20,644 nucleotides of DNA. It comes from a virus. The notes under the pieces are model-generated. The model saw nothing but the letters and a program-made list of their open reading frames with translations, was not told the origin of the DNA and ran no database searches. Below, piece after piece: positions 2,338-3,214 of the stretch. The translations under genes were made by a program, and so were the position numbers. Numbering within the stretch: position 1 is the first letter of the stretch; each line of letters starts with the position of its first letter. The stretch spans positions 1 to 20,644 of IMG/VR virus record IMGVR_UViG_3300009163_000218, one strand, 5' to 3'.

Positions 2338-2681
2338 CTTCCTACACCTGACCTGTCAAGCAAGTCCACAGCTTGTTCCAGTGGCATGATTGCCCACCAA
2401 GCGCCAGTGTTCGTTGATCCAACACCGACAGGTTTCACCACAAGGATTCCGACCTGTGCCTTGGCGTTGACCTTCTCTACTGCCAACTCTTTGAGCCATG
2501 CAGGAATCGAGTAGGACTTGTGAGCCTTCACCTCGATGCACACACCTGGCAGTCCGGCAACGTCACCTTTGTCGTTGACACCTGCCAGCGCCCTGCGCTC
2601 GGCGTGAACGTAGCCACGAGCGATGAGGTAGTTGACGACGGCAGTTTCAGCTGACGTGCCTTTGGCTTTGTTCCTGCTCAT
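2334..2681 (-). CDS. PD-(D/E)XK nuclease, Holliday-junction-resolvase-like
   Basis: The product has 115 aa from ATG 2681, chosen because it overlaps the stop of the Mom-like gene as ATGA; an upstream ATG at 2696 would add five residues. Motifs are Glu12 in GTSAETAV, Asp40 in DKGDVAGLPG, then Glu50-Val-Lys52 in CIEVKAH, which is the classic E..D..ExK order of small archaeal Hjc-like and VRR-type endonucleases. The compact size and the predicted alpha-beta core agree. Related phage enzymes cut branched DNA or trim junctions before packaging. It sits in a run of DNA-processing and DNA-modifying genes. I cannot separate a resolvase from a VRR-NUC or a restriction-like nuclease from this view. Confidence 0.72.
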   Translation of the reverse strand: MSRNKAKGTSAETAVVNYLIARGYVHAERRALAGVNDKGDVAGLPGVCIEVKAHKSYSIPAWLKELAVEKVNAKAQVGILVVKPVGVGSTNTGAWWAIMPLEQAVDLLDRSGVGR

Positions 2682-3214
2682 AAGTCCATTTCCCATCTAA
2701 TCTTTATGGCTGTGGATTGTGCTTCATTTCGTTCACGACCTGTCTGTTTCCAGTCCATGCCTTTGATTGACGTAGATACCGACTGCCAGTTTGCCGCCTT
2801 GTAAATTGTGCCAAAATGTGCTTCAGAATCTTGATAACTAATCAACCTAATGACATCAGGGAATCGTTGCTTAATGTCTTTCTTCATCTGTCCAAGCATC
2901 CAGGTCGCAGTGTTCTTGGGTGCATGGTCACAGATAGCCATCCGACGCAGTTCCAACAACTTGTTCCCATCTTTCAGCCTATTTGCGGCGATTGGTGTTG
3001 ACCAGATAGCAACCGCATAAGGAACATGATTGAAGTCGGCGGTGTAACAGACATAATGAACATTTCGAACCACGTTTCCCCATTTAATAATCGGGAATCT
3101 GCTGTGCCATTCTGCGTTCAATTTGCAAGCAGCTGGAGCGCCAATGATTCTGAGGTTGAAGAGTTTTGGGCTGGCAACCATTTCACGATCAACTTCAAAC
3201 AATGAATCGCTCAT
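2678..3214 (-). CDS. Mom-like / GNAT-related DNA modification protein (candidate)
   Basis: The product has 178 aa from ATG 3214, with AGGA 9 nt upstream and an ATGA overlap with the zinc-ribbon gene. A frame extension to 3334 exists but would run through that gene. Features include a short beta-rich start, then LELRRMAI (87-94), KNTATWMLGQMKK (100-112), and RLISYQDSEAHFGTIYKAANW (about 123-143), closing with a basic tail. This order, an ELRR motif, a PKNTxxW helix, then an S-Y-x-D strand followed by G-x-I-Y-x-A-x-x-W, matches what I know of Mom-family proteins. Those are GNAT-fold enzymes that, in phage Mu, convert adenine to a carbamoylmethyl form and shield DNA from restriction. It could instead be an ordinary N-acetyltransferase acting on protein or a small molecule. 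Confidence 0.68.
   Translation of the reverse strand: MSDSLFEVDREMVASPKLFNLRIIGAPAACKLNAEWHSRFPIIKWGNVVRNVHYVCYTADFNHVPYAVAIWSTPIAANRLKDGNKLLELRRMAICDHAPKNTATWMLGQMKKDIKQRFPDVIRLISYQDSEAHFGTIYKAANWQSVSTSIKGMDWKQTGRERNEAQSTAIKIRWEMDL

Follow-up and report, generated by a model that had tools for sequence, protein, structure and literature searches.

The window, a stretch of 20,644 nucleotides, is a virus record, a fragment of a phage genome. Six genes on its minus strand are relevant here:

667 to 1416, minus strand: Cas4/RecB-type exonuclease (PHROG 1674, PDDEXK_1)
1918 to 2337, minus strand: another WhiB-like regulator, downstream of the nuclease gene
2334 to 2681, minus strand: nuclease of the PD-(D/E)XK type, resembling Holliday-junction resolvases; its ATG shares bases with the mom stop codon, and a start at 2696 is the alternative
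2678 to 3214, minus strand: Mom-family gene (predicted GNAT fold, W-H-S clade), 178 aa
3211 to 3309, minus strand: mini zinc ribbon CxxC...CxxC, 32 aa (P0002), directly upstream of mom, with an ATGA overlap at the mom start
3306 to 3659, minus strand: WhiB-like regulator, upstream in the same gene run

The mom reading frame extends from an ATG at 3214 to a TGA at 2678 on the minus strand; the plus strand across the same interval is interrupted by stops. The original prediction of a Mom-like gene, which named no strand, was built on four motifs, and all of them are present in the 178-aa product in the order given: ELRR (residues 88-91), KNTATW (100-105), SYQD (126-129) and GTIYKAANW (135-143). 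An alternative, longer version would start from a GTG at 3334, but the ATG at 3214 agrees in the alignment with several close relatives, and many share a short M-x-x-x-L-F beginning. Both predicted gene overlaps were seen: the mom start overlaps the zinc ribbon ORF by 4 nt, and the end of mom shares 4 nt with the nuclease ORF if the latter begins at 2681, the start chosen by comparison with the related locus L069, or 19 nt if it begins at 2696. A homologue search recovered 80 loci from viral contigs, 78 of which carry a homologue in their gene calls, with up to 63% identity, and 28 residues are invariant in an alignment of 32 diverse relatives. The gene and its motifs are therefore not a product of chance.

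Four-base overlaps occur throughout the gene cluster of the window. Since these are combined with recombination and WhiB genes, the proposed placement of mom in an early operon is plausible. The major capsid protein has its nearest counterparts in Mycobacterium phages, at 37.6% identity, and all 57 records with a similar capsid are Mycobacterium phages. Together with the two WhiB-like genes this makes an actinobacterial host likely, in agreement with the predicted actinophage origin. Elsewhere on the minus strand, a nucleotide-sugar epimerase gene overlaps a glycosyltransferase gene (4954-6500), which in turn is overlapped by a gene with a TTG start for an exonuclease-like protein (6497-7708, PHROG 284), and a second glycosyltransferase gene lies beside structural genes (18310-18999). 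The epimerase and glycosyltransferase genes may possibly serve glycosylation of the virion or of DNA.

The overlapping genes had also been proposed to form a compact defence-evasion set, a claim that comparison with related loci does not support. The nuclease has a match to a Holliday-junction resolvase PHROG (E 1e-24), and its relatives occur in 224 phage records, of which Mycobacterium phages account for 183, whereas Mycobacterium is absent from the ten genera named for 116 phage records with a Mom match (3 further records are nameless). Mom and the nuclease occur together in just one of the 80 related loci, L069. Because of this single co-occurrence and the different phage distributions, the two genes are not a conserved set, and we rejected a nuclease-plus-Mom module. 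At L069 (3266-4534) the nuclease, a WhiB-like Cys-rich gene and Mom are consecutive; the window has these three kinds of gene too, but arranged differently.

The phages that carry relatives of mom differ in background, and the adjacent genes are of recombination, replication, HNH or DNA methyltransferase type, a pattern that would suit an accessory gene that is mobile. A methyltransferase motif was detected near the gene in 6 of the 31 relatives' loci, a raw count made in these loci alone. This is too sparse for a functional partnership with a methyltransferase to be claimed.

The position of the zinc ribbon is reminiscent of phage Mu, where com encodes a zinc-finger translational activator of mom (PMC6483171) and overlaps mom. 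Gene order and overlap are alike in the window, and the cysteines of the ribbon at positions 6, 9, 24 and 27 are spaced nearly as those of Mu Com (6, 9, 26 and 29). The ribbon and mom could accordingly be a Com/mom-like pair, with translation of mom under the control of the ribbon, a regulatory reading compatible with any of the explanations for the enzyme itself. However, P0002 did not match the Com family profile (PF10122), which recognised the control Mu Com at 2.7e-9; as proteins of 32 residues are hard for profile searches, this negative result is not strong alone. BLAST detected no similarity for the ribbon either, just two of the 80 loci (L024 and L026) have a short ORF of a similar kind immediately before mom, and RNA folding predicted a hairpin at the mom start codon no stronger than in shuffled sequences (z -0.08). 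Moreover, four-base overlaps are common to the whole cluster. The analogy to Com is thus not supported by profile, BLAST, conservation in relatives or RNA folding, and we consider such a pair very unlikely.

Profile comparisons support assignment of the 178-aa protein to the Mom family. It scores 53.8 bits with the Pfam Mom model (PF25680; curated cut-off 27.1), and its PHROG match is 1384, 'Mom-like DNA modification protein' (E 6e-21). At E 0.01, all 39 aligned relatives match Pfam Mom and none of these proteins matches an acetyltransferase Pfam model. In a tree, the protein and 31 relatives from viral contigs form a separate clade, here termed W-H-S, with support of 100/100 and a branch of 2.92 changes per column; several long end branches make the placement of single Mu-type rows unsure. 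When the clade was compared with Mu-type Moms profile against profile, the probability was 99.5% (E 3e-23). With E values up to 1 allowed, a profile of the clade alone, built without Mu-type members, matched a single PDB entry, the Mu Mom structure 8bv8 (E 1.5e-4). PADLOC returned no match for the protein, and a search of a bacterial genome collection for homologues yielded just 9 weak matches.

The clade was found in many otherwise unrelated phage contigs. In a tblastn search of three clade members against 50,697 named phage records, no match covered 80% of the query. As all 32 clade members match PHROG 1384, the family is already known and the variant alone is new: a distinct clade that has invariant residues of its own and no match of at least 80% coverage in the named phage records.

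The AlphaFold2 model of the 178-aa protein (pLDDT 84, pTM 0.80) adopts the predicted GNAT fold, and its best PDB match is not an unrelated acetyltransferase but Mu Mom 8bv8 (rank 1, E 1.5e-8, query-normalised TM 0.70). The next match is an ordinary acetyltransferase at E 1.8e-7, so that Mom leads generic GNATs by a margin of about tenfold. For L005, a Mu-type Mom taken from the same collection as a control, the corresponding values were 3.5e-12 for Mom and 1.6e-5 for a generic GNAT, a several-million-fold margin. The narrow margin of the W-H-S protein beside the far wider gap of the control implies a genuine but diverged Mom relative. The GNAT fold and the closeness of generic GNATs in this search would also be expected if the protein were a typical GNAT acyltransferase with a protein or a small molecule as its substrate. 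Against such an enzyme stand the lack of any acetyltransferase match among the 39 proteins, a Mom score above the curated cut-off and the loss of the acyl-CoA loop glycines described below, and we regard it as quite unlikely.

The canonical acyl-CoA loop, Q/RxxGxG/A, is replaced in the clade by P-[K/R]-[N/F/Y]-T-x-[T/S], which reads P-[K/R]-N-T-A-[T/S] in most members, and the loop glycines are gone. The structure 8bv8 is titled 'inactive mutant S124A'. Mu Ser124 aligns with T104 of the 178-aa protein; 26 of the 32 clade members have Thr at this position and the other 6 have Ser, so a hydroxyl is kept. The E-L-x-R, S-Y, H-x-G and Y-x-A-x-N core is likewise retained. The H-Y pair after the first helix, a feature of the Mu-type subgroup present in the sampled Mu-type sequences that cover this region, Mu included, is absent from the clade; all 32 members have H37-S38 instead, within W-H-S-R-x-P. 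Equivalence of the protein to Mu Mom is not supported, because it belongs to a distinct clade lacking the H-Y pair. Which residue is assigned to the H-Y site depends on alignment register: MAFFT and hhalign place W36 opposite the Tyr, whereas the helix ends of the two models (the 178-aa protein and L005) put H37 opposite the His, favouring H with H and Y with S.

Mu Mom adds a carbamoylmethyl group, which agrees with the name 'methylcarbamoylase' in the PDB. If the chemistry of this Mom relative had changed, so that it acts on DNA but adds another group or uses another base than Mu Mom, this would account for the strongly supported clade on its long branch and for clade-wide invariant residues that include H37, S38, W71, R90, Q128 and W174, with H-S replacing the Mu-type H-Y. 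Retention of the catalytic hydroxyl position and of the core motifs speaks against this explanation, as does the variation with register of the residue opposite the H-Y pair. We rate changed chemistry as rather unlikely, and its extended form, in which the W-H-S proteins make up a second class of Mom enzymes, with a rebuilt active site, that makes a different hypermodification of phage DNA than Mu's, is put forward as a tentative idea of the same rank.

The gene is a Mom-family member that has lost the acyl-CoA loop, keeps a hydroxyl at the Ser124 position and is strongly conserved in otherwise unrelated phages. We consider it probable that it encodes a diverged Mom-family enzyme modifying a base in phage DNA, most likely at N6 of adenine, and thereby blocking host restriction. 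The 178-aa enzyme would take DNA as its substrate, adenine N6 being the likeliest target, and the modified base would prevent host restriction enzymes from cutting the phage DNA. The neighbourhood of some relatives, which adjoin DNA methyltransferase and recombination genes, favours this explanation. Against it stand the lost H-Y pair, the generic GNATs close behind Mom in the structure search, and the small share of loci (6/31) with a methyltransferase motif. DNA modification by the W-H-S clade is likely, and its product may differ from that of Mu; our literature search found no biochemical report on any clade member. Mom gives phage Mu broad restriction resistance, and the small set of invariant residues specific to the clade could serve to probe directly how the Mom active site works and whether it can produce other DNA modifications.

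Among known systems, Mu Mom (8bv8; PF25680) is the obvious reference. It modifies phage DNA and blocks restriction (PMC6483171), acting on N6 of adenine (PMC7824862). It shares with the 178-aa protein the GNAT fold, as predicted for the latter, the E-L-x-R strand, the hydroxyl at the S124 position, the motif G-x-[I/V]-Y-x-A-x-N and, where an acyl-CoA loop would otherwise stand, a loop of the form P-[K/R]-N-[T/S]-x-[T/S]. In contrast to Mu Mom, the 178-aa protein has W-H-S-R-x-P without an H-Y pair and S-Y-Q-D instead of S-[F/Y]-A-D, is about 60 residues shorter, and is preceded by an ORF without a Com profile match. Mu-type Moms of Microbacterium, Arthrobacter, Salmonella, Vibrio and Pantoea phages belong to the same Pfam or PHROG family and share the core motifs, but they are 26-34% identical over the aligned part, all have H-Y and fall outside the W-H-S clade. 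One sequence in our collection, USL85063.1 of Arthrobacter phage SWEP2 (L015:2010-2876), is labelled an endolysin yet is a full-length Mu-type Mom; its Pfam Mom match (E 8e-56), its H-Y pair and its grouping with Mu Mom in the tree identify the label as an annotation error. Likeness to the NCBIfam XF1762 family (NF045478) is weak, with 35.5 bits over residues 66-175 and thus under the curated cut-off of 50 bits. At three related loci (L008:1741-3387, L009 and L010:1966-3429) the Mom domain is fused to a long N-terminal extension that precedes it, and L008 shows weak REase/Vsr-like matches. Jumbo phages are known to carry Mom-REase fusions (PMC7824862), which share the Mom domain with the window, where, however, this domain is standalone and the adjoining nuclease is a separate, resolvase-like gene.
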